Assembly (NCBI RefSeq): GCF_944390845.1
Contig: NZ_CALXRM010000001.1
Span: 1-64,000, forward strand
From: an uncultured Brachyspira sp.
Lineage (GTDB): Bacteria > Spirochaetota > Brachyspiria > Brachyspirales > Brachyspiraceae
Direction of reading: 5' to 3'
Length of the DNA stretch: 64,000 bases
How positions within the stretch are numbered: the stretch's first letter is position 1; each line of letters opens with the position of its first letter. Shown here piece after piece: positions 3,813 to 33,330 of the stretch. A model generated the notes under the pieces. The model did no database searches. It was not told the origin of the DNA and was given only the letters and a program-made list of their open reading frames with translations. The translations under genes and the position numbers were made by a program.

Positions 3813-5486
3813 ATGAATTTTAAAAATAAAGTTGTTTATCAAATATATCCAAAATCTTTTATGGATAGTAATAATGACGGATTTGGAGATATAAGAGGAA
3901 TAATATCAAAATTAGATTATTTACAGAATTTAGGAGTAGATATTATTTGGAGTACTCCTTTCTTCGTATCTCCTCAAAAAGATAATGGATACGATGTTGC
4001 TGATTATTATAATGTTGATCCTTCTTATGGTACTATGGAAGATGTTGAAGAACTCATAAAAGAAGCTAAAAAAAGAAATATAGATATAATGTTTGATATG
4101 GTATTCAATCATACTTCTACAGAACATGAATGGTTTAAGAAGGCTATTAATGGAGAAGAAAAATATAAAAATTATTATATATTCAAAAAGGGCAGAGTAG
4201 TTGATGGAAAAAATGAAAAAAAAGTACCTCCTACAAATTGGGTATCTAAATTCGGCGGCAATGCTTGGCAGTATATAGAAAAATTTGATGAGTATTATTT
4301 GCATCTATTCGATGTTAGTCAGGCTGATTTGAATTGGGATAATGAAGAAGTAAGAAAAGAAATTTTTGACATAGTTAACTTCTGGATAAAAAAAGGGGTT
4401 TACGGATTTAGATTTGATGTTATAAACCTTATATCAAAACCAGAAATTTTTGAAGATGATTTTGAAGGAGACGGCAGACGTTTCTATACTGACGGAATAA
4501 ATATACATAAATATTTAAAAGAATTAAATAAAAATACTTTCGGAAAATATGATAATGCTGTTACTGTAGGTGAAATGTCATCAACAAGTATAGAAAACTG
4601 TATTAAATATTCTGGTGAAAAAGAAAATGAACTTAGCATGGTATTTAGTTTTCATCATCTTAAAGTTGATTATAAAAATAAAGATAAATGGCAGTTAATG
4701 GATTTTGATTTTCAAGAATTAAAAAATCTTTTATTTTCTTGGCAGGAAGGAATGCAGGATAATAATGCATGGTCAGCCTTATTTTGGTGCAATCATGATC
4801 AGCCTAGAATAGTTTCAAGATTCGGAGATGATAAAAAATACCATAAAGAATCTGCTAAAATGCTTGCTACTGTTATGCATTGTTTAAGAGGTACTCCTTA
4901 TATTTATCAAGGCGAAGAAATAGGTATGACTAATGCTTATTTTGATAATATTAATCAATATAAAGATGTTGAATCAATAAACTATTTCAATATACTTAAA
5001 AATAATGGCATAGAAGAAAAAGAAATATATAAAATACTTCAAAGTAGATCAAGAGATAATTCAAGAACTCCTATGCAATGGAATGACAAAGAGAATGCAG
5101 GATTTTCAAATGCTAAACCTTGGATAGAAGTTATTGATAATTATAAAGATATTAATGCTGAAAATAATATTAAAGATGAAAACTCTATATTTAATCATTA
5201 TAAAAAATTAATAAAATTAAGAAAAGATTATAAAGTTATTTCAGAAGGTAAAACTATACCTATATTAAAAGATGATAAAAATGTATTTGCTTTTATAAGA
5301 GAATACAATAATGAAAAACTTTTAGTAATAAATAATTTTTACAGTAATGAGTGCACTATAGATTTAAGTAATATTGATTTTGATATAAAAAAATCGAAAT
5401 GCCTTCTTTCAAATTATGATGAGGCAGTACTTGATAACACATTAAAGTTAAGACCTTATGAATCTATAGTACTATATAATAATTAA
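3813..5486 (+). CDS. treA: Alpha,alpha-phosphotrehalase (trehalose-6-phosphate hydrolase), GH13
   Basis: A cytoplasmic glycoside hydrolase that splits trehalose-6-phosphate into glucose and glucose-6-phosphate. It is a complete GH13 (beta/alpha)8 enzyme of 557 aa, the usual length for TreC/TreA. The start is YQIYPKSFMDSNNDGFGDI. Visible catalytic residues are nucleophile D202 (GFRFDVINLI), acid/base E254 (VGEMSS) and D329 (CNHDQPR). AGGA precedes the ATG by 7 bases. It lies 118 bases after treB and is followed by a strong terminator, so treB-treA form a two-gene operon. An oligo-1,6-glucosidase has similar sequence, but the PTS neighbour favours phosphotrehalase. Confidence 0.9.
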   Translation: MNFKNKVVYQIYPKSFMDSNNDGFGDIRGIISKLDYLQNLGVDIIWSTPFFVSPQKDNGYDVADYYNVDPSYGTMEDVEELIKEAKKRNIDIMFDMVFNHTSTEHEWFKKAINGEEKYKNYYIFKKGRVVDGKNEKKVPPTNWVSKFGGNAWQYIEKFDEYYLHLFDVSQADLNWDNEEVRKEIFDIVNFWIKKGVYGFRFDVINLISKPEIFEDDFEGDGRRFYTDGINIHKYLKELNKNTFGKYDNAVTVGEMSSTSIENCIKYSGEKENELSMVFSFHHLKVDYKNKDKWQLMDFDFQELKNLLFSWQEGMQDNNAWSALFWCNHDQPRIVSRFGDDKKYHKESAKMLATVMHCLRGTPYIYQGEEIGMTNAYFDNINQYKDVESINYFNILKNNGIEEKEIYKILQSRSRDNSRTPMQWNDKENAGFSNAKPWIEVIDNYKDINAENNIKDENSIFNHYKKLIKLRKDYKVISEGKTIPILKDDKNVFAFIREYNNEKLLVINNFYSNECTIDLSNIDFDIKKSKCLLSNYDEAVLDNTLKLRPYESIVLYNN

Positions 5487-5532
5487 TTGCAGATTGATCC
5501 TTCATATAAATTTTTATTATCGTTATTAAAAG

Positions 5533-5571
5533 CCTTGCATATATTAGCCTTTATATGCAAGGTTATTTTTT
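5533..5571 (+). terminator. Rho-independent terminator of treBA
   Basis: An 11-bp perfect stem CCTTGCATATA/TATATGCAAGG (5533-5543, 5552-5562) has an 8-base loop and is followed by a T-rich run. The last codons of the convergent gene overlap the hairpin. Confidence 0.85.
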
Positions 5572-6536
5572 AATTTTAATAAAACATATATACTATCTAG
5601 AAGCAAAGCAAATAATATACATATTAAACAAAATAACTGAAAATTATTGAATATCTTAAAAGCAAGAGAATTTGCTGATTCTAATTTTATTAATGCATTC
5701 ATAAAATTAATATTAATTACATTGTATGATAATAGCCATAATGATGATGCAATAGCTGATACTATATCAATACCAATAAACAATGCAACTGTTTTTTTAT
5801 TGTAAGTGTCTGTAAACATTTTGATGATTTCTCTTGATATAAGCATTAAAATGAATATTAAAGGAAATAAAAAACTATTCTTCATAATGTCTATATTAAA
5901 GAATGCAAAATATTCATTATTTATTTTTATTGAAAATAAATTTGGAGATAAGAACAAAAGAGATAAAAATATAATTGCTGCGGATATCTTAATAATTGAA
6001 TTATATAAATTTATTTTTTTATTGGGAAGTTTTGGAAGATTATCAAAATCTACTGTTATGCTGGAAATATCTATATTCTTATTTGAAATAAATACAAATA
6101 TTAATGTTACAAATGAAAATGCTAATAACAATGCAGTAAAAATATTGCTTGCTGTATTAATTATATTGAAAGCTTCATTATTTATAATTATATTAATTAT
6201 TGATGAAACTACTATTCCAAGCAATGTTGAAGATAATACAATTTTTAATACAAATTTATAATATATATAATATGGATATCCTATTAAGCATTTATTGTAA
6301 TCTGTATCATATTTACATGCAAGTTCATAAGGATTTCCGATTTCTATTAAAATATTTTTTATATCATTTATTTTATAGTCTGAGTTTGAAAATCTTTCTT
6401 TGATTATATCATCAATAAGAGTTCTTATTTCATTAGAAACATCTTCTTTAATTTTATCGGGCATTGATTTTGTAACAGTATAAATATATCTTTCAATAAT
6501 ATCTTCCGCTTTTTTATTTTCTTTATTGTTAATCAT
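5544..6536 (-). CDS. HAAS-domain membrane protein
   Basis: A 330-aa protein with an N-terminal helical domain (about residues 8-90, EDIIERYIYTVTKSMPDKIKEDVSNEI) typical of the HAAS domain, which is usually encoded next to PadR regulators. Seven or so hydrophobic segments follow. The function is unknown. HAAS proteins are thought to couple membrane or envelope signals to their PadR partner or to an ABC exporter. The padR-like gene is 33 bases upstream on the same strand, so the two form an operon. No exporter gene is adjacent. Confidence 0.7.
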   Translation of the reverse strand: MINNKENKKAEDIIERYIYTVTKSMPDKIKEDVSNEIRTLIDDIIKERFSNSDYKINDIKNILIEIGNPYELACKYDTDYNKCLIGYPYYIYYKFVLKIVLSSTLLGIVVSSIINIIINNEAFNIINTASNIFTALLLAFSFVTLIFVFISNKNIDISSITVDFDNLPKLPNKKINLYNSIIKISAAIIFLSLLFLSPNLFSIKINNEYFAFFNIDIMKNSFLFPLIFILMLISREIIKMFTDTYNKKTVALFIGIDIVSAIASSLWLLSYNVININFMNALIKLESANSLAFKIFNNFQLFCLICILFALLLDSIYVLLKLKNNLAYKG

Positions 6537-6569
6537 ATAAACTCCTATATATTAAAAAATTAAAAAAAA

Positions 6570-6902
6570 TTATTCATCTATTATTTTATTAACATTAGAT
6601 GAAAATTCCTTCCAATGATGAACAGCTTTTTTTAAAACTTCTTTTCCGTCTTTTGTTATAGAATAATATTTTCTTGGCTTATCTTCTTTAGTATTCCATT
6701 CACTTTTTAAAAGCCCTTGATTTTCTAATCTTCTTAAAAGAGGGTATAAAGTATTAGCTTCAACCGTAATACCGTTTTCTTTTAATTTAGTAATCAAATT
6801 GTATCCGTATTCTTCTTTTTTTAATTGACTAAGTACAACTATTATTAAAGTTCCGCGTCTTAGTTCCTGCATCAAATTTGATACTATATCATCATAGTTC
6901 AA
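6570..6902 (-). CDS. PadR-family transcriptional regulator
   Basis: A 110-aa winged-helix repressor. The core is MQELRRGTLIIVVLSQLKKE...GYNLITKL, followed by the wing strand ANTLYPLLRRLENQGLLKSEW, diagnostic of PadR. The start codon is TTG at 6902, supported by AAAGGA 7 bases upstream; no in-frame ATG fits the family N-terminus. It lacks the long C-terminal helix domain of larger PadR proteins, so it belongs to the short PadR-s2 type. It heads an operon with the HAAS membrane gene, and a palindrome lies inside its own promoter. Confidence 0.85.
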   Translation of the reverse strand: MNYDDIVSNLMQELRRGTLIIVVLSQLKKEEYGYNLITKLKENGITVEANTLYPLLRRLENQGLLKSEWNTKEDKPRKYYSITKDGKEVLKKAVHHWKEFSSNVNKIIDE

Positions 6903-6931
6903 TATTAAATCCTTTATATATTATATAATAC

Positions 6932-6960
6932 ATTATAGTGTGTAATACACAATATATCAA
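6932..6960 (-). promoter_or_regulatory. padR promoter with operator inside the spacer
   Basis: Read on the minus strand: TTGATA (6955-6960), a 17-base spacer, then a perfect TATAAT (6932-6937). A near-perfect palindrome TGTGTAATACACA (6939-6951) fills the spacer. This is the expected layout for autorepression by PadR. Confidence 0.75.
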
Positions 6961-7023
6961 TATGTGAAATAAATTTTATTTAAAAAGCTTTATTTTTATT
7001 CTAATATATGGCATACTATACAA

Positions 7024-23704: not shown

Positions 23705-25597
23705 TTAATTTAAATCAAGTATTTTGTTTTTTAAAGCTAAATATTTTGCTGTATAATAAACTCTATTTTGTGATTCTCTATTTCCAAAACCAAAACTTCT
23801 TCTGCTTACAGCAAGTATAGGAGGAGCTTGTATTCTTTTTGATATACCCATTCCCATATATTGCTTCCACCATCTTTCCAAATCATCTACAAATTCATTA
23901 CCATTTTTAAAATATTTATTTAAAATACCTTTTTGACAGCCTATTTTTTCTTCAAGTTCACCTTTAATATACAAATCTGCAATATCTTCTAATATGGATC
24001 TATTCCAAGATTCCATTAAATATTTAAATAAATAATCATGATAATCATATTTTATAGGATCACCTTTGCCTTCATCAACAGCCTGTGCGGTAGATAATTC
24101 TGCACTTGGAACAATATTTATAGTACCTTCAGGAATAATTTCCTTTTTAAATACTTCTTTGTTAACATAATTAGAAAGTCCGTATATTTGATATTTCCAT
24201 AAATCAGCAAGACATGCAAAGAATCCTGCACCATCACCATACATAGTAGAATATCCTACCATAGTTTCTGTCTTATTAGCATTGCAAGTAAATACACCTC
24301 CAAAACTTGCTGCGATAGAAGCTAAAACTCTTGAAGATCTATCCCTTGCTTGTATATTTTCTATAACGAAAGATGATACTGTTAAATTACTTTCTTTTCC
24401 GTCTTTTATAATAGGGGAGGTTTCTAATTGTTTTACTGTATAATCTACTGATTCTTGTATAGGAACTACCATATATGCACAGCCTAAATTATCAGCTAAT
24501 GTTTTAGCAAGATTTTTAGTTGTGTTAGAATTAAATTTACTTGGCATATTTACCAAAAGAACATTGTCTTTACCAATAGCATTTACATACATAGCTGATG
24601 ATAATGCCGAATCAATTCCTCCTGATACGCCTATAACTACTTTACTGATTCCTATAGACTTCATAAATTTTCTTATACCATAAATAACTGTATCGTATAT
24701 TAATTTATATTCATTTTCCTCTTTTATTTCCATAGGATTTGGGAATATTTTATTTTTTACATCTATATCTGCATAATACAAATTATCTTCGTATCTATTA
24801 GCTGTTATTAACAATTTACCATTATTGTCATAAACAGAACTTCCGCCATCAAAAGTATAAACTGTTTTTCCATTATTTTGTATTCCTACATTATTAACAT
24901 ATATTAAAGGAACATTATGTTTACTTGCTATATCACCATACATTTTATGACGTTTAGTATCTTTCACTAAAGTATATGGAGAACTTGATATATTAACAAA
25001 TAAATCAACATCTTTATTGCTATTTATTATATCTATAGGAGAAAATGAATAATTACTGCTCCAAGCATCTTCACATATTGTCAAACCAAGTTTAATTTTT
25101 TCTCCATTGCATTCTATTTCTAATGGCTTTAAATATTCTTTTATATCAGCATTATTTTCAAAAGCCAAATCTTTTAAACTGAAAAAATGTCTTGGGTCTT
25201 CAAATTCTTTATAATTAGGAAGTAAAGATTTTATTATAAAAGGGTAGGAAGTGGAATTATTATGTATTAACTTTCCATCTTTTGCTACAAATAAAGCATT
25301 ATATTTTCTTATTCTACCATCAAAATTTTTCTTAGTTTTATCCGATGCTACATTTCCAAAAATAACATATATGCCATTAGAAGCCTTGATAATTTCTTCT
25401 CCAAGCTCCTCACATTCTTTTACAAATCCTTCGCTTTCCCACATATCACCAAGCATATATCCAGATACTGCTAATTCAGGAAATATTACTATATCTGCTT
25501 TATTTTTTTTAGCAGAACTTATAGCACTTATGATTCTAACTGTATTATCGCATGGTATTGAGGGTATTATTTCAATTTGAGCAATAGCTATTTTCAC
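23705..25597 (-). CDS. nadE: Glutamine-dependent NAD+ synthetase
   Basis: The last step of NAD synthesis, converting deamido-NAD to NAD with glutamine. The N-terminal nitrilase-type glutaminase (about 1-270) has the Glu of VIFPELAVSGY and the nucleophile Cys175 (GLTICEDAWS). The C-terminal ATP-pyrophosphatase domain has the P-loop GVSGGIDSALSS. At 630 aa it is the long eukaryote/mycobacterium-like two-domain form. The start is GTG at 25597 with GGAG 7 bases upstream. It is transcribed alone, 153 bases ahead of the che operon. Confidence 0.95.
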   Translation of the reverse strand: MKIAIAQIEIIPSIPCDNTVRIISAISSAKKNKADIVIFPELAVSGYMLGDMWESEGFVKECEELGEEIIKASNGIYVIFGNVASDKTKKNFDGRIRKYNALFVAKDGKLIHNNSTSYPFIIKSLLPNYKEFEDPRHFFSLKDLAFENNADIKEYLKPLEIECNGEKIKLGLTICEDAWSSNYSFSPIDIINSNKDVDLFVNISSSPYTLVKDTKRHKMYGDIASKHNVPLIYVNNVGIQNNGKTVYTFDGGSSVYDNNGKLLITANRYEDNLYYADIDVKNKIFPNPMEIKEENEYKLIYDTVIYGIRKFMKSIGISKVVIGVSGGIDSALSSAMYVNAIGKDNVLLVNMPSKFNSNTTKNLAKTLADNLGCAYMVVPIQESVDYTVKQLETSPIIKDGKESNLTVSSFVIENIQARDRSSRVLASIAASFGGVFTCNANKTETMVGYSTMYGDGAGFFACLADLWKYQIYGLSNYVNKEVFKKEIIPEGTINIVPSAELSTAQAVDEGKGDPIKYDYHDYLFKYLMESWNRSILEDIADLYIKGELEEKIGCQKGILNKYFKNGNEFVDDLERWWKQYMGMGISKRIQAPPILAVSRRSFGFGNRESQNRVYYTAKYLALKNKILDLN

Positions 25598-25729
25598 AAT
25601 AAATCTCCAAATATGTTATATTACGACCAATAACTATAATAATATAATTAAAGAAAAAATACAATAAACCGTTATATAATATATATTATTTTTTATTACT
25701 GTATGTTAAATATAAATAGGGGAAATGGA

Positions 25730-26317
25730 ATGAGAAGGAAAGATTTTATATTTGAAAATATGAATGAAATAGAAAACATGCTGAATAATATAGAATTTGG
25801 TGTTATGGCTTTACCAGATACTATACCTTATGCTGTACCAATTAGTTTTTGCTACAAAGATAATAAAATATATTTTCATGGTGCTATGTCTGGAAGAAAA
25901 TACGAAATTTTAAAAAATAATCCTAATATTTCTTTCACAGCTTCAAAAGTATATTCATATATACCATCTACATTTATGAACAATAAAATGATACCTACTC
26001 AATTTTTCTTTTCTGTATTTATTGAAGGTAAATTTGAAACCATACAAGATACAGAAGAAAGAAGGAGTATTTTGTATGAATTGGTAAAGAAATATGAACC
26101 AAATAATAATAATTTATCAATAGACGATAAAATGTTTGACTATGCCCAAAATAACATGTTAATAGGTATTATAAATATAAAAAACATCACAGCAAAAGCA
26201 AAATTTGGTCAAAATATGCCTGATGATGAAATAAAAATTATAATTGATGATCTAAAAACAAGGGGAACAAAACTTGACATAGAAACAGTAGATATGATAA
26301 ATAAAACAAGAAAATAG
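25730..26317 (+). CDS. Pyridoxamine 5'-phosphate oxidase-like flavoprotein, NimA-type
   Basis: A 195-aa split-barrel flavin-binding protein. It begins MRRKDFIF, and the core KIYFHGAMSGRKYEILKNNPNISF matches the Nim (nitroimidazole resistance) branch of the PNPOx superfamily. Such proteins may reduce nitro compounds or act as general FMN oxidoreductases; resistance cannot be inferred from sequence alone. The frame is open to an ATG at 25703, but the AGGGGA at 25718-25723 is placed for the ATG at 25730. Confidence 0.8.
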   Translation: MRRKDFIFENMNEIENMLNNIEFGVMALPDTIPYAVPISFCYKDNKIYFHGAMSGRKYEILKNNPNISFTASKVYSYIPSTFMNNKMIPTQFFFSVFIEGKFETIQDTEERRSILYELVKKYEPNNNNLSIDDKMFDYAQNNMLIGIINIKNITAKAKFGQNMPDDEIKIIIDDLKTRGTKLDIETVDMINKTRK

Positions 26318-26327
26318 AAAAAATAAC

Positions 26328-26390
26328 TTGAAAAAAGTATTATAAGTGATAGAATAAAAGTTAAGGTGAAAAAACATCTCTTTTATTCTA
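26328..26390 (+). promoter_or_regulatory. Promoter and hairpin upstream of the cyclic-nucleotide-domain genes
   Basis: TTGAAA (26328-26333), a 16-base spacer and TAGAAT (26350-26355) form a possible promoter. An 11-bp perfect inverted repeat TAGAATAAAAG/CTTTTATTCTA (26350-26360, 26380-26390) overlaps it. There is no T-run, so it is either an operator or a leader hairpin. Confidence 0.4.
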
Positions 26391-26432
26391 AAATATATTA
26401 ATTAGAATAAATATTAATTGAGGACAAATTAA

Positions 26433-27428
26433 ATGCAAACAAGAGTATATAAAGCAGGCTCTATAGTATACTTTACTGGTGATACTTCTGATAGAGTTTA
26501 CATATTAAAACAAGGTCAGGCTCAAAGCATATTTTTGTCAGAAGAAACAGGCTATGAAACTAGAGAGCTTATCAATATAGGTGAGTTTTTTGGTGTAAAA
26601 AGTATACTGGGAACATATCCGCAAGAAGATACTGTTCAATGTTTGACAGATTGTGTTGTTATTATTATTACTTATGAAGAATTTGAAAGTCTGATTGAAA
26701 AGAATAAACCTATCATTATAAAAATGTTGAAAGTTTTTTCTACTCAGCTTAGAAGAATAAATAAGAGAGTTAGAGAATTAGTTGAAAATGATATAAGTGA
26801 GGGTACTATTGATACTTTAGAAGGTTTGTATAGTATTGGAGAGTTTTATTTCAAAAATAAGAAATATAGAAATGCTTTATATGCCTATAAAAGATACATA
26901 CAATATGCTGATGAGGATTCATCATTCTATAATACTGCTAAAGAGAAAATAGAGGAATGTAAGGAAGAATTAGATATAACTGATGACAGCGATATAGCTC
27001 CTCCTACTTCTGCACCTATTTCATCAAGTGCTAAACCTGATGCAAAATCTCAGAATGTTACTATTAATGATCCAAATTATAATAAAGCAGTAGAATTATA
27101 TAATAATAATGATTATATTAATTCTATCAAAATATTTAATAGTTTATTAAAGAGTACAAATGCTCTTGTAGCTGAGAATGCTATTTTCTATATGGGAAAA
27201 TGTTATTACAATATAAATAAATATGATAATGCTTCTACAGTGCTTCTTTCTGCTGTAAAAAAATATCCTAAATCTGCAAATGTAAAAGAAGCTATACTCT
27301 TTTTAGCTAAAACTTGCGAAGCTAAAGGCGACAAAACTAAAGCCAAAGCATATTATCAAAAAGTTATTTCAATGCCTCCTATGGATAATTTCTCTAAAGA
27401 GGCTTATGCTAATGCTTCTAGGTTATAA
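26433..27428 (+). CDS. Cyclic-nucleotide-binding-like domain fused to TPR repeats
   Basis: A 331-aa protein. Residues 1-120 form a CRP-like cupin domain. The phosphate-binding cassette reads GEFFGVKSILGTYPQED and lacks the Glu and Arg that hold the cyclic phosphate, so nucleotide binding is doubtful. A Ser/Pro-rich linker (about 185-205) leads into three TPR-like repeats (about 210-330, NKAVELYNNNDYINSIKIFNSLL) resembling the YbgF/CpoB-type coordinator. No DNA-binding domain. It is 21 bases from the following Crp-like regulator, suggesting they act together. Confidence 0.7.
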   Translation: MQTRVYKAGSIVYFTGDTSDRVYILKQGQAQSIFLSEETGYETRELINIGEFFGVKSILGTYPQEDTVQCLTDCVVIIITYEEFESLIEKNKPIIIKMLKVFSTQLRRINKRVRELVENDISEGTIDTLEGLYSIGEFYFKNKKYRNALYAYKRYIQYADEDSSFYNTAKEKIEECKEELDITDDSDIAPPTSAPISSSAKPDAKSQNVTINDPNYNKAVELYNNNDYINSIKIFNSLLKSTNALVAENAIFYMGKCYYNINKYDNASTVLLSAVKKYPKSANVKEAILFLAKTCEAKGDKTKAKAYYQKVISMPPMDNFSKEAYANASRL

Positions 27429-27449
27429 TTTTAATTAAGGAAAATTGAT

Positions 27450-28085
27450 ATGGATAATAATTTATCTTCTCATACAAAAAAATACAATACTGATGATGTT
27501 ATATTCTTGGAATATGAAAAAGGCGATAAATTCTACATGGTTCAAAGCGGTTCTGTAAAGATTACTAAAGTTATTAAAGATGTTGAAAAATTATTAGACA
27601 TAGTTTATCCAGGTGATTTTTTTGGTGAAATGGCTATACTTGAAGACACTACTAGAAGTGCATCTGCAATAGCTAATGAACCTACTGTTTTATTAGAATT
27701 AAGAAAAGAAAATTTCCAAAATATATTAGCAAACAATACAGCAATGGCTCTTAAACTTTCAAAAATGTTCGCTAAAAGAATATTCGATGCCAAAAGAAGA
27801 CTTTTAATACTACAATTAAATGAAACAGATTTAAGAGTTTATGACTGTTTGCTTTTACTTGCTGAACTTCAAAACATTCCTAGAGATCATTATTATGAAC
27901 CTCAGGAATTAAATGCTACTATAAATGATATTGCAAATTGGTGCGGTGTTAAAGTAGTTGATGTTCAAAAAGTATTGAATAACTTGGTAAAAACAGGTAA
28001 AATTGATATTAAAACTAATACAATTTATGTAAAAAATTTAAAAGAAATTCAAAGACAAATTGACTTAAAAAGAAAGAAATCATAA
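27450..28085 (+). CDS. Crp/Fnr-family transcriptional regulator
   Basis: A 211-aa regulator with an intact phosphate-binding cassette, GDFFGEMAILEDTTRSASAIA, including the Glu and Arg expected to bind a cyclic nucleotide. A long dimerisation helix (about 105-135) and a C-terminal winged helix (NATINDIANWCGVKVVDVQKVLNNLVKTG) follow. It has no Fnr-type cysteines. AAGGAAA precedes the ATG. Its pairing with the degenerate CRP-TPR protein is unusual. Confidence 0.8.
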   Translation: MDNNLSSHTKKYNTDDVIFLEYEKGDKFYMVQSGSVKITKVIKDVEKLLDIVYPGDFFGEMAILEDTTRSASAIANEPTVLLELRKENFQNILANNTAMALKLSKMFAKRIFDAKRRLLILQLNETDLRVYDCLLLLAELQNIPRDHYYEPQELNATINDIANWCGVKVVDVQKVLNNLVKTGKIDIKTNTIYVKNLKEIQRQIDLKRKKS

Positions 28086-28119
28086 TAAAAAATTATTTCT
28101 TTCTATAAACTTTATAAAA

Positions 28120-28161
28120 AAGCTGATGACTGATTATTTAGTTATCAGCTTTTATTTTATT
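28120..28161 (+). terminator. Terminator after the Crp-like gene
   Basis: A 12-bp stem AAGCTGATGACT/AGTTATCAGCTT (28120-28131, 28140-28151, one G-T pair) is followed by a T-rich tract. Confidence 0.85.
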
Positions 28162-28314
28162 AATAACATTATAATTATGTAAAAAATATTTATTTTTCAT
28201 TAATTATTCTACTATATTCACCTAAAAACATATATTAATAACATGATAATTCACAATATTATAATATTAATATATATAATACAGAATTTTATTATCGATC
28301 ATAAAATATTCATA

Positions 28315-28343
28315 TTGACAAAATAATACAATTAATATATACA
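28315..28343 (+). promoter_or_regulatory. Promoter of ankyrin gene 1
   Basis: TTGACA (28315-28320), a 17-base spacer and TATACA (28338-28343), 32 bases before the start codon. Confidence 0.6.
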
Positions 28344-28361
28344 TTTTATAAAATATTTTTA

Positions 28362-28436
28362 AAAAGAGGTTTATATGAAAAAAATTGTATTAATGGCAGT
28401 ATTGTATACTTTATTTAGTTTTAATGCTTTGTATCC
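28362..28436 (+). repeat. Ankyrin-gene 5' cassette, copy 1
   Basis: A 75-base segment holding the ribosome binding site and whole signal-peptide coding region. It is identical to copy 3 (30290-30364) and differs from copy 2 at three positions. Confidence 0.9.
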
Positions 28437-29073
28437 GGCAAACGAGGAAACAGAAGCACGGTTCTTTTTGTATATAGGATCTGGTAATATTGAAGAAGTT
28501 TCAAATTATATAGATGATAAAAAAATCAATATAAATGCCAAATTAGATGATGGTATGACACCATTAATATTATCTATTGTTTATAAGCAAGACGAAATAG
28601 CAAAAATGCTTATAGAAAAAGGTGCAAATCTTAATATCAAAGACAAATCAGGATTTACAGCTTTAATACATTCTATAATGAAAAATAGAACAGAAGTATC
28701 AAAAATGCTTATAGAAAAAAAAGCTGATGTAAATATAAAGCTTTCATTAAATGAAAATGGAATATATATGAAAAATTTTACTCCTTTATTACTTAATGAA
28801 AATAAAGAAATAGCTCAATCGTTAATAAATGCTGGTGCTGATATTAATATAAAATTTACTGCAAAATATGCTGGACAAGATATAAAATTAGAAAATGCTA
28901 CACCTTTAATGTGGTTTATTGTGAATGATAATACTGAAATAGCTCAGTTATTGATAGAAGCTGGAGCTGATATCAATGCTAAAGATAAAAGAGGAAACAC
29001 AACATTAGATTATGCAAAAGAGAAAAACAATACTAAAATAGAGCAGTTACTTATAGCAAAAGGTGCTAATTAA
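28375..29073 (+). CDS. Secreted ankyrin-repeat protein 1
   Basis: A 232-aa exported protein: a signal peptide (MKKIVLMAVLYTLFSFNALYP) followed by about five ankyrin repeats (MTPLILSIVYKQDEIAKMLIEKGANLNIKD and others), the last ending GNTTLDYAKEKNNTKIEQLL. Ankyrin stacks bind protein partners, and this one would act in the periplasm or at the surface. Own promoter and AGAGG ribosome binding site. First of four tandem paralogues. Confidence 0.85.
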   Translation: MKKIVLMAVLYTLFSFNALYPANEETEARFFLYIGSGNIEEVSNYIDDKKININAKLDDGMTPLILSIVYKQDEIAKMLIEKGANLNIKDKSGFTALIHSIMKNRTEVSKMLIEKKADVNIKLSLNENGIYMKNFTPLLLNENKEIAQSLINAGADINIKFTAKYAGQDIKLENATPLMWFIVNDNTEIAQLLIEAGADINAKDKRGNTTLDYAKEKNNTKIEQLLIAKGAN

Positions 29074-29317
29074 TAATCCATTATTATTTATAGCGATAAA
29101 CTTGCTGAAAGATAGCTAGCTGACAACTAAAGTTATCAACTATTTATTTATCACTTTAAAAAGTTCATAAATAATTTTTATTAGTTGTTATATAATTCAA
29201 TAGTGTAAATAATTTATAGGCAATACAGTAATTAAATGTAAATTCTGTATTGTCTAAATAATAACTAATAAATATAAAATTGAGAAAATAATATATTTTA
29301 TTATAGAATATTTTTTT

Positions 29318-29392
29318 AAAAGAGGTTTATATGAAAAAAATTGTATTAATGGCGGTATTGTATACTTTATTTAGTTTTAACGCTTTATATCC
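29318..29392 (+). repeat. Ankyrin-gene 5' cassette, copy 2
   Basis: It differs from copies 1 and 3 at three bases only, all silent third-position or Leu-codon changes (GCG, AAC, TTA), so the encoded signal peptide is unchanged. Confidence 0.9.
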
Positions 29393-30029
29393 AGTAAAAT
29401 CTGAAAATGAAGCACTGTTTTTATCGTATATAGCATCTGGTAATATTGAAGAAGTTTCAAATTTTATAGACAATAAGAAAATTAATATAAATGCTAGAAT
29501 AGAAAATAGTACGACACCATTAATATTTTCTATTATTTTTAAGCAAGATGAAATATCAAAGCTACTTATAGAGAAAGGTGCAGATCCTAATATCAAAGAC
29601 AAGTCAGGATTCACCGCTTTAATATATTCTATAATGTATAATAGAACAGAAATATCAAAAATACTTATAGAAAAAAAAGCTGATGTAAATACAAAAGTAT
29701 CATTAAATGAGAATGGAGTATATATGAAAAACGTTACTCCTTTAATACTTAATGAAAATAAAGAAGTAGCTCAATCATTAATAAATGCTGGTGCAGATGT
29801 TAATATTAAATTCTCTTTTCAACATGCTGGAAAAAATATAAAATTAGAAAATATTACACCTTTAATATGGTTTATTTTTACTGATAATTCTGAAATAGCT
29901 AAGTTATTGATAGAATCCGGTGCTGATATCAATGCTAAAGATAAAAACGGAAAAACAGCATTAGATTATGCGAAAGAAAAAAACAATAGTAAAATAGAGC
30001 AGTTACTTATAACCAAAGGTGCTAAATAA
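29331..30029 (+). CDS. Secreted ankyrin-repeat protein 2
   Basis: A 232-aa paralogue of gene 1 with the identical 21-residue signal peptide and the same repeat arrangement; it is recognisably collinear with gene 1 throughout. Differences are concentrated in the ankyrin loops (for example the segment after LYP and residues 155-175). Own TTGAGA-type promoter at about 29280 and the same AGAGG ribosome binding site. Terminated at 30049-30084. Confidence 0.85.
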   Translation: MKKIVLMAVLYTLFSFNALYPVKSENEALFLSYIASGNIEEVSNFIDNKKININARIENSTTPLIFSIIFKQDEISKLLIEKGADPNIKDKSGFTALIYSIMYNRTEISKILIEKKADVNTKVSLNENGVYMKNVTPLILNENKEVAQSLINAGADVNIKFSFQHAGKNIKLENITPLIWFIFTDNSEIAKLLIESGADINAKDKNGKTALDYAKEKNNSKIEQLLITKGAK

Positions 30030-30048
30030 TAAAAAATATATAGTTTTA

Positions 30049-30084
30049 AAAACTCTATAAGCTAAAGCTGATAGAGTTTTTTTT
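30049..30084 (+). terminator. Terminator after ankyrin gene 2
   Basis: A stem AAAACTCTAT/ATAGAGTTTT (30049-30058, 30071-30080) is followed by eight T. Confidence 0.85.
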
Positions 30085-30245
30085 ATTCGTAAGTCATTTA
30101 AAATTAAAGTTTTCACTTAATTGTTTATTGATTTAAAAGTTATAATAACTATAAAAGTTAAATGTACAAATTACTAATATACAAAAATAGTTTAAGTAAT
30201 TAAATTTAATAATTATAAAATCATATACCCATATAAAGTATATAA

Positions 30246-30274
30246 TTGACAAAACAATGTAATTAGTATATATT
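30246..30274 (+). promoter_or_regulatory. Promoter of ankyrin gene 3
   Basis: TTGACA (30246-30251), a 17-base spacer and TATATT (30269-30274). The same architecture and spacing from the start codon as gene 1. Confidence 0.6.
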
Positions 30275-30289
30275 TTGTATAGAATATTT

Positions 30290-30364
30290 AAAAGAGGTTT
30301 ATATGAAAAAAATTGTATTAATGGCAGTATTGTATACTTTATTTAGTTTTAATGCTTTGTATCC
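30290..30364 (+). repeat. Ankyrin-gene 5' cassette, copy 3
   Basis: 75 bases identical to copy 1, about 1.9 kb away. The coding regions downstream have diverged far more. Confidence 0.9.
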
Positions 30365-31103
30365 AGAGCTTAGTAAAGATGAAAAAGAATTTGTATCATA
30401 TATAGCAAATGGTAATAAAGAAGAAGTTTTAAATTTTTTAAATAATAAAAAAGCAAATATAAATTTAGATATTATGGACGGTGCTACACCTTTGATGTTA
30501 TCTATTATTTATAAGCAAGATGAAATTGCAAAGCTGTTAATAGAAAAAGGTGCTGATCTCAATAAAAAAGAGAAAGAAAGCGGTGCTACACCTTTAATCT
30601 TATCTATTCTTTATGAGCAATATGAAATAGCAGAGATACTAATAAAAAAAGGTGCTAATGTTAATATAAAAGACAATTCTGGATTTACAGCTTTAATACA
30701 TGCTATACAACGTGAGAAAACAGATTTATCAAAAATGCTTATAGAAAAAAAATCTGATGTAAATACAAAAATCACATTTAAGACAGATGGATTATATTTA
30801 AAAGACTTTACTCCTTTGACATTTAATGTAGATATAGAAATAGCTGAGTTATTAATAAAAGCTGGTGCTAAAGTTAATACTAGATTATCTATAAAAGATG
30901 ATGAACGAGATATACAATTAGAAAATATTACTCCTTTAATGTGGGTAATTTTTGATTATAATCCAGAATTAGCAAAATTATTAATAGAAGCCGGAGCTGA
31001 TATTAATGCAAAAGATAAAGACGGAAACACAGCACTAGATTATGCAAGATACAGAAATAATAGCGAAATAGAGCAGCTGCTTATTGAAAAAGGTGCTAAA
31101 TAA
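30303..31103 (+). CDS. Secreted ankyrin-repeat protein 3
   Basis: A 266-aa paralogue with the same signal peptide. It carries one extra ankyrin repeat (SGATPLILSILYEQYEIAEILIKKGANVN, about residues 95-125) compared with genes 1 and 2, accounting for the 34 additional residues. The final repeat, GNTALDYARYRNNSEIEQLLIEKGAK, closes the stack. Own promoter and ribosome binding site. Confidence 0.85.
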   Translation: MKKIVLMAVLYTLFSFNALYPELSKDEKEFVSYIANGNKEEVLNFLNNKKANINLDIMDGATPLMLSIIYKQDEIAKLLIEKGADLNKKEKESGATPLILSILYEQYEIAEILIKKGANVNIKDNSGFTALIHAIQREKTDLSKMLIEKKSDVNTKITFKTDGLYLKDFTPLTFNVDIEIAELLIKAGAKVNTRLSIKDDERDIQLENITPLMWVIFDYNPELAKLLIEAGADINAKDKDGNTALDYARYRNNSEIEQLLIEKGAK

Positions 31104-31295
31104 TAAAAAGTTACTATAAATAAATTTTTTAGTATTTTCTTTGTATATTTAAATAATAAAAATGAAACATTAAAAAATATTTTAATATTACAAAAATATT
31201 TTTTAATATTAATGTATTTCCTATAAGTATAAAATTTATTATTAAAACATAAGTAATTATTTTTTAATAATATGAAAATTAATTTAAATAATATA

Positions 31296-31324
31296 TTGAA
31301 AAAATACTTACATTTGTATATATT
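31296..31324 (+). promoter_or_regulatory. Promoter of ankyrin pseudogene 4
   Basis: TTGAAA (31296-31301), a 17-base spacer and TATATT (31319-31324). It appears intact although the gene is broken. Confidence 0.5.
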
Positions 31325-31358
31325 TAAATATATATATGTTTTTTATTAAGGCATGACT

Positions 31359-32045
31359 ATGAAAAAAGTTATATTAATGATTCTATTTTTTAGTTTTACT
31401 TCCCTTTATTCTTATAATGTAACCGAGTAAGAATTTTTATCATACATAGTAAATGGAAATAAAGAAGAAGTTTTAAATTATATAAACCATAAAAAAGTAA
31501 ATATAAATGCAAAAAATGACAGAGGTTTAACTTTTTTAATTTTATCTATTTTGCATAAACAAAATGAAATAGCTAAAATACTTATAAAAAGCGGAGCTGA
31601 TCTTGATTTGCAGGATAATTTAGGACTTACAGCATTAGCATATTCACTTTTGCATGATAATGATGAAATGAGTAAAATACTTATAGATTCCAAGGCTGAG
31701 ATTCATGTTAAAATAACAGTAAAAACGGGATATATGGATGTGAAAAACGTCACTTTCTTAATGCTTACTACAAATCCTGAAATAGCTAAAAAATTAATAG
31801 AAGTTGGAGTTAATATTGATGCTCAAGCAGATTTTAAATCTTATATGGAAAATATGTATTTAGAAAATATTACAGCTTTAATATTGGCTATTTTTAATGA
31901 TAATACACCCAAAGCAGAAGTATTAATAAATTCAGGAGCCAATGTTAATATAAAAGATAGATATGGACGTACTGCTTTATATTATGCAAAAAGAAATAAT
32001 AATACTAAAATAGTTCAAATGCTTATTGAAAAAGGTGCTGAATAA
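31359..32045 (+). pseudogene. Ankyrin-repeat gene 4 broken by one in-frame stop
   Basis: The reading frame from the ATG at 31359 (AAGG 7 bases upstream) encodes a signal peptide MKKVILMILFFSFTSLYS and five more residues, then TAA at 31428-31430. The same frame then stays open to 32045, encoding an ankyrin stack homologous to the three neighbours. At the aligned position gene 3 has Lys (DEKEF against TE-stop-EF), so a single A-to-T change explains the stop. Translation would release little more than a signal peptide; internal restart is possible at later Met codons. A recent inactivation, or a sequencing or phase-variation event. Confidence 0.85.
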
Positions 32046-32052
32046 TAAAAAA

Positions 32053-33330
32053 TTATTTTTTATTTTCTTTACTATTTAAAATTATTCTATGTATTATTAT
32101 GATTAGAATATTATATATAAGTAATGCTATAAAAAATACTTTCATTACAAACATGAAATTTTCAAAAGTTCTAAGTCCATTTCTTAATGAAAAATAAACA
32201 TAAGAAAATATAACTAAATATCCATAGAATGGTGCAAACAATTTATAAGCAAGACCATAATTAAATGTAAGCACTGTAAAGCCTAAAGAGAACCCAAAAA
32301 TTACTGCTTGAGGAATTAATGGAATAATAGCTTCATATCTATTTGTAAATTGTATCAACACAATTTGTTTAGCAAATACAATTAAAAATACTGATAAACA
32401 AAATGAAGCAAATACAAAAAGTGCAATAGAATAATAAAGTATTTTATTTTCTTTATTTTTCTTATCTTTTTTTGCTATTAAAATATAAGAAAACATTACT
32501 GAAGCTATAGGAGTTCCTATATAGAAAAACATTTTTATTACTAATGATATAGTAGAGTAGTATCCTGCACTTGTTTTATCCAAATACCTATTAGCCATAA
32601 GTACATCGCTTAATGATATCCAATTAAATATAAAATTTATAATAACAATATTTATTAAATATATTAAAAATCTTGATAAGTTTGTAATTGAAAAATGAGT
32701 TTTTATTTCATTAATTTTAATATAGTAGGGTAGTTTAAGTTTTTTTAATTCTATTAAATTAATAATCAAATATAAAATACAAAATAAAGATACAGATATA
32801 ACAGCTCTTTCTAATGTTAATCCTGTTATAATGAAATATGCAAGCAATATTATTTTAGCTATGAATATTGCTATTAAACTTGCAATATAATCATAAGCTA
32901 TATAATTATTAATTTTTAATATTGATTGAGATACTATACCTAAAATAGTGGCAAATATACCAATAGATATTATAAAAAGAGCAGTATAATTTTTGATATT
33001 GAAAAATATATCCATCAATGGTATAGAAAATATATAAAGTATAGTTATTACAAAAGCCATAAAATAACCGTAAGACCAATAAGTTTTACCGTCTTCTTCA
33101 TTTCTATAATGATGCATTATATAATAACTAAAACTAGAAACAGTTAAAACAATAATAGAATATATATTGATTATACCATTATAATGTGCGAAATCTTCTA
33201 TTGATAAACTTCTATTTACATAAATGGAAGAAACATAATTTAAAACGCTGGATATACCATTTATAAATACCAATAATGCATAATTAATATAATATGAATA
33301 TCTTTTATATAATTTTTTTATATTATCCAT
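32053..33330 (-). CDS. Oligosaccharide flippase-like membrane protein
   Basis: A 425-aa protein with about twelve hydrophobic helices. The N-terminus (INYALLVFINGISSVLNYVSSIYVNRSLSIEDFAHYNGI) is typical of the polysaccharide transporter/flippase branch of the MOP superfamily (Wzx-like), which moves lipid-linked saccharides across the inner membrane. The substrate is unknown. It is 39 bases downstream of the GldG-like gene, so the two are probably co-transcribed. Confidence 0.7.
   Translation of the reverse strand: MDNIKKLYKRYSYYINYALLVFINGISSVLNYVSSIYVNRSLSIEDFAHYNGIINIYSIIVLTVSSFSYYIMHHYRNEEDGKTYWSYGYFMAFVITILYIFSIPLMDIFFNIKNYTALFIISIGIFATILGIVSQSILKINNYIAYDYIASLIAIFIAKIILLAYFIITGLTLERAVISVSLFCILYLIINLIELKKLKLPYYIKINEIKTHFSITNLSRFLIYLINIVIINFIFNWISLSDVLMANRYLDKTSAGYYSTISLVIKMFFYIGTPIASVMFSYILIAKKDKKNKENKILYYSIALFVFASFCLSVFLIVFAKQIVLIQFTNRYEAIIPLIPQAVIFGFSLGFTVLTFNYGLAYKLFAPFYGYLVIFSYVYFSLRNGLRTFENFMFVMKVFFIALLIYNILIIIIHRIILNSKENKK

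Follow-up and report, generated by a model that had tools for sequence, protein, structure and literature searches.

An array of ankyrin-repeat genes in an uncultured Brachyspira sp. carries nearly the same 75-nt cassette, made of the ribosome-binding site and the signal-peptide-like start of the protein, in front of three diverged ankyrin bodies. Comparison with related genomes makes it probable that, in the family as a whole, this cassette has been exchanged between gene copies while the bodies diverged. Partial gene conversion in tandem paralogue families homogenises one segment between copies and lets others diverge. The array is an example of such partial concerted evolution in a tandem family, with which it shares a homogenised segment, an ordinary rate of change between orthologues and incongruent trees, and from which it differs in nothing essential. 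It is a new case of a known process, in which the homogenised segment happens to be the ribosome-binding site and the signal-peptide-like N-terminus.

The array and its cassettes

The window, that is, the whole stretch of 64,000 nucleotides that was analysed (G+C content 26%), contains the following features of the array and its neighbourhood:

27450..28085, + strand, CRP/FNR-type regulator gene, upstream neighbour of the array
28118-28153, terminator-like hairpin after the CRP/FNR-type regulator gene
28315..28361, + strand, head of copy 1: TTGACA at 28315, 17 nt, TATACA; recognised by eye and absent from the list of the promoter scan
28362..28436, + strand, 5′ cassette of copy 1: Shine-Dalgarno AGAGG, ATG at 28375 and 62 coding bases of a hydrophobic N-terminus; MKKIVLMAVLYTLFSFNALYP
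28375..29073, + strand, ankyrin gene 1, body class A, 232 aa
29280..29317, + strand, head of copy 2: promoter-like TTGAGA-N18-TAGAAT; the upstream region is unrelated to that of copy 1
29318..29392, + strand, 5′ cassette of copy 2: differs from the other two by three silent changes
29331..30029, + strand, ankyrin gene 2, body class B, 232 aa
30246..30289, + strand, head of copy 3: promoter-like TTGACA-N17-TATATT, 11/12 matches
30290..30364, + strand, 5′ cassette of copy 3: 75/75 nt as copy 1
30303..31103, + strand, ankyrin gene 3, body class C, 266 aa; exceeds genes 1 and 2 by about one repeat
31359..32045, + strand, fourth ankyrin gene, interrupted by TAA at codon 24; its 5′ part is unlike the cassettes
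32053..33330, − strand, polysaccharide-flippase-like gene (Pfam Polysacc_synt_3), constant downstream neighbour

Direct reading and a gapless alignment showed that the cassettes of copy 1 (28362-28436) and copy 3 (30290-30364) agree at all 75 nt and that the two copies differ at the very next base in both directions. The three changes of copy 2, at 29354 (GCA/GCG), 29381 (AAT/AAC) and 29387 (TTG/TTA), are all silent, and the identical stretch covers the ribosome-binding site together with 62 coding bases of the signal-peptide-like start. The ankyrin parts are diverged, the proteins of copies 1 and 2 being 64-65% identical to that of copy 3; over codons 22-72 the number of differing bases out of 153 was 53 for copies 1 and 3, 27 for copies 1 and 2 and 48 for copies 2 and 3. 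The original prediction had described the identical cassettes, the silent changes and the diverged ankyrin parts, and the alignments bore it out. The first 36 nt of the cassette have exactly three matches in the window and none in 100 shuffles. Across the whole genome, full-length matches were restricted to these three sites, followed by matches of 26 and 21 nt, and an exact search of viral contigs returned no match to the cassette.

The ankyrin repeats of genes 1-3 score above the Pfam cut-off (96-164 bits for PF12796 and 93-126 bits for PF00023), and the Pfam scan of these genes gave nothing notable besides them. Among models of type IV secretion ankyrin effectors (NCBIfam AnkH and others), only ankyrin-containing models responded, the best with 93 bits against a cut-off of 600. 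The N-terminus, judged by eye, is signal-peptide-like, with a hydrophobic stretch after MKK, and the three ankyrin-repeat proteins are probably exported. At the other end, the last 25 codons of copy 3 (within 30303-31103), as well as those of its counterpart in genome G009, resemble the ending of classes A and B. Most class-C genes of other genomes finish differently, with ITKLIS..KGGRF or a similar tail, and the pattern possibly reflects exchange at the 3′ end as well.

Three of the four ankyrin genes are intact, each with an ATG, a ribosome-binding site and a promoter-like sequence. This last element is weak evidence, because shuffled sequences give nearly as many promoter-like sites (38 ± 7) as the region as a whole (46). 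The single broken copy, which was missing from the original prediction, has a 5′ part that differs from the cassette, and its best identity in the other loci read is at most 49%. In the rest of the genome, seven other ankyrin-bearing stretches included one adjacent pair with a similar pattern and no export signal (L116, 1524 and 2087, + strand, G000:C47), in which the first 63 bases are 92% identical and the remaining protein 48%.

Rates of change across the genus

The whole-genome matches searched for fell in one genus, the named records among them being Brachyspira, with one further distant hit outside it. The named relatives were B. alvinipulli ATCC 51933, B. innocens ATCC 29796 and uncultured Brachyspira metagenome-assembled genomes, and a 73-nt cassette query gave long matches in most of the genus. 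At least one cassette-bearing gene was present at the same genomic place in 17 of the 26 genomes examined. As for the remaining ones, the gene is cut by a contig end in G013, G014 retains a broken class-B remnant with a decayed cassette still at the locus (L071), and the other seven had only short matches or none. The flippase-like gene was present in all 19 loci read, window included, and the CRP-type gene in 16 of them, the exceptions being G011, G013 (where the contig ends) and G014. Each locus holds one to three cassette-bearing genes. Their bodies fall into classes that we named A, B, C and S, and A, C and S each form one side of a fully supported branch of the body tree. The first ankyrin gene of G018 (locus L066) is a mosaic whose N-terminal part is of class B and whose remainder is close to S; it stands beside S in the body tree and was kept as B, the label being taken from the N-terminus of this partly S-like gene.

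The comparison set consisted of one genome per species. Distance and tree tests were based on 29 full-length genes of 32, the early-ending G006_1, G007_2 and G010_2 being left out, and the test for long identical runs used the first 72 codons of 31 genes, with G006_1 left out. All tests left out the gene of G013, which the contig end cuts, and the broken remnant in G014.

Because the array recurs across the genus, conservation and exchange could be told apart by comparing orthologues with paralogues. In 113 orthologue pairs of different species, the cassette had accumulated 0.073 differences per base and the body 0.076, a ratio of 0.95 (95% interval 0.60-1.38). In the 13 within-genome pairs involving class C, the corresponding values were 0.078 and 0.251, a ratio of 0.31 (0.18-0.47), and the contrast between the two ratios was reversed in none of 5000 codon bootstraps. 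Among these within-genome paralogues the cassette was the least diverged of 209 windows, whereas among orthologues it ranked 96 of 217, the windows in both counts overlapping and not being independent trials. Because the ratio is 0.95 for orthologues and 0.31 for paralogues, unusual conservation is disfavoured and homogenisation favoured. A generally slow evolution of the cassette was considered and rejected on the orthologue ratio.

The original prediction had offered gene conversion or selection on the 5′ part, and had named as evidence against it a 5′ part that diverges as fast as the other parts of the genes. Such equal rates were indeed found between species-level orthologues, and together with the low divergence of paralogues they point to exchange. 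For the family, the conversion half of the proposal gained support from the rates, from the misfit of trees and from the reassortment and tracts described below. The selection half, understood as extra selection that slows evolution, is unsupported because orthologues change in the cassette at the body's rate. The same ordinary rate argues against a cassette kept for co-regulation as a nucleotide-level control element, be it an RNA structure, a small-RNA target or a protein site. An identity that spans the ribosome-binding site and synonymous positions would suit such an element. However, copies differ from one another by silent changes, as do species, the three 5′ ends folded as RNA no better than shuffles (z of 0.26, 1.33 and 0.36) and a search of 28000-32200 against Rfam was empty up to an E value of 1, all of which leaves this explanation hardly credible.

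The tree fit pointed in the same direction as the rates. On the body tree the cassette requires 1.10 changes per site, close to the 1.08 of the body itself, and its consistency index of 0.420 lies below those of all 184 body windows (0.465-0.698), which overlap and are not independent trials. Within-genome and between-genome cassette distances were compared in all 12 genomes with a B or S gene plus a C gene (10 for the body controls). From −15 to +63, the difference gave P = 0.0008 with the 12 genomes and 0.0008-0.0173 with one genome per clade. The within-genome excess was not significant in the coding part alone (P = 0.17; thinned, 0.06-0.31) and at best marginal from −40 to +63 (thinned, 0.04-0.15).

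A different explanation of the likeness between paralogues is selection alone, according to which the signal-peptide and ribosome-binding region tolerates few states and the copies look alike without exchange. Cassette divergence starts at 1.4-1.5 times that of the body at small distances and, as body divergence rises, plateaus near 0.075-0.08, in orthologues and paralogues alike. Such a plateau is predicted both by a pool of exchanged alleles and by a constrained, saturating signal peptide, and the cassette does encode an N-terminal export-like segment, of which window copies 1 and 3 are at or near the family's commonest sequence. Against this, orthologues change in the cassette as fast as in the body, and 24 of its 63 coding columns are variable, 10 of them third positions. 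The small number of synonymous sites in the cassette, only about 12, counts against the exchange reading. We regard selection alone as rather unlikely, and exchange as probable, a grading kept at this level because the within-genome excess depends on the segment compared, the origin of the window pair is uncertain and the plateau fits a saturating signal peptide.

Reassortment and conversion tracts

Exchange between copies was also suggested by the upstream heads, which proved to be reassorted with respect to the ankyrin bodies, with junctions in or beside the cassette. Heads of genes at position 1 are common to A, B and S bodies. The first gene of B. alvinipulli (G002) combines a class-B body with a head 93% identical to the one before the class-A gene of the window. 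Neither of these heads is related to that of the class-B gene in the window, and the exchange point in the G002 gene lies in or just above the cassette. A tree of the heads in which class-B genes form one clade was rejected (p-AU 3.7e-5), in a test chosen once the head matches were known, and one in which position-1 genes form a clade was weakly rejected (p-AU 0.017), with long branches present.

Two relatives carry clear conversion tracts. In G023, the B and C genes are identical to each other between about −42 and coding base 63, and the B gene has a position-1 head above this tract and a B body below it. In G007, a broken gene with a C body has a cassette 3-4 changes away from two B cassettes and at least 8 from other C cassettes. 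Selection alone has difficulty with such multi-site haplotypes that cross classes, and it leaves the reassortment of heads and bodies unexplained. In the longest-run test, four of 18 within-genome pairs passed the Bonferroni threshold of 0.0028 (copies 1 and 3 of the window, genome G000, and pairs of G023, G007 and G025), all four runs sitting in the cassette, and seven of the 18 had no run at P below 0.1.

The window pair itself calls for more caution. Between-genome pairs passed the run test too, with the same long runs in 11 of 177, seven of which involve window copy 3 and three the B gene of G023, so that the identity of copies 1 and 3 need not stem from a recent event within the genome. 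Among the genes that match copy 3 in this way are paralogues in other genomes. Over 81 bases (−18 to coding base 63), copies 1 and 3 differ at three positions, all outside the identical 75, and copy 3 differs from its G009 orthologue at four; the body differences are 53/153 and 8/153, respectively. In the cassette, therefore, no orthologue is nearer to copy 3 than copy 1 is. By eye, six of 11 other class-C cassettes have a different base at codon 11, which in three of the six is the sole difference from window copy 3 over the 62 coding bases. Because class-C relatives are one base away, a single mutation may account for the identity, as may an exchange further back in time. It is probable, not proven, that the exchange process of the family also made copies 1 and 3 identical.

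Two larger blocks of the window also stand out in similarity to relatives. Positions of about 24000-28400 are 94-98% identical to G002, most other aligned kilobases being 76-90% identical, and the right edge of this block is inseparable from the first cassette, as G002 is without a class-A body. The block is a probable exchange between species, in one case, that ends at the array. At about 4000-7000, identity to G009 is 94%, compared with 77-89% in adjoining kilobases; this stretch is possibly a second exchange block or else conserved genes.

Relation to antigenic variation and proposed mechanism

The original prediction had likened the array to surface-variation loci. If the array were an active locus of this kind, the cassettes would be switch sites, connecting a single expression signal to different bodies among members of a population. 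The layout resembles the vpma/vsp loci of mycoplasmas, where conserved 5′ untranslated and signal-peptide regions precede diverged bodies; those loci have a single active promoter, carry recombination sites at −1 to −72 and encode an Xer-type recombinase (PMC2268961). The reassortment of heads and bodies, with junctions in or beside the cassette, and the one to three cassette-bearing genes per locus fit the comparison as well. Further, many Brachyspira ankyrin proteins were found in exoproteome and surfaceome fractions in a published proteome study (PMC4955376), which is compatible with export of the array proteins. No switch was found, however. Unlike in vpma/vsp, all array copies lie on the + strand, each intact copy has its promoter-like sequence and no recombinase was present among the seven neighbouring proteins scanned. 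The body classes are stable across species, and dN/dS of the bodies, calculated by hand with the Jukes-Cantor correction, was below 1 (about 0.38 for C-C, 0.36 for B-B and 0.66 for within-genome paralogues), suggesting that the bodies are on average under purifying or relaxed, not diversifying, selection. A switch was set aside as the default reading on the grounds of orientation, recombinase scan and dN/dS; the array is not a demonstrated surface-variation machine, and an active one seems very improbable. Short conserved 5′ homology also serves recombination in the vmp genes of relapsing-fever Borrelia and in Anaplasma msp2, whose silent copies feed one expression site (PMC4534519). The 5′ homology of the array is alike, but no silent archive was found at it.

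We propose instead that the tandem family evolves by modules, in which head (promoter region), cassette (ribosome-binding site and N-terminal segment) and ankyrin body would each have a history that is partly its own. Neighbouring copies, and also related strains and species, would undergo homologous recombination that repeatedly moves the cassette by gene conversion and places crossovers in it. The cassettes would in this way form one common pool, and bodies A, B, C and S would remain distinct. Ordinary RecA-type recombination is the presumed agent, and function is what we infer to hold the bodies apart.

Recombination has been reported to contribute as much as mutation to core-genome change in B. 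pilosicoli (PMC8116685). Ankyrin-like genes number 31-35 per strain in that species and at least 48 in B. hyodysenteriae (PMC3532143, PMC4476648); these genes share genus and domain with the array, and the excerpts of the reports mention neither a common 5′ cassette nor exchange among copies. Among the matches listed in literature searches, judged by title and start of abstract, none dealt with gene conversion in Brachyspira or with ankyrin genes, gene conversion and tandem arrays in bacteria; the matches listed for ankyrin recombination in Brachyspira contained nothing on this locus.

In conclusion, Brachyspira genomes hold dozens of ankyrin genes, and this locus shows how one array of them changes, offering a defined place for measuring recombination between copies, strains and species. 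A bolder and doubtful extension is that the 75-nt cassette, through its constant homology, acts as the joint at which heads and bodies are shuffled within arrays and across Brachyspira species. If this were true, such a joint would produce new combinations of expression and body fast enough to matter in the gut.
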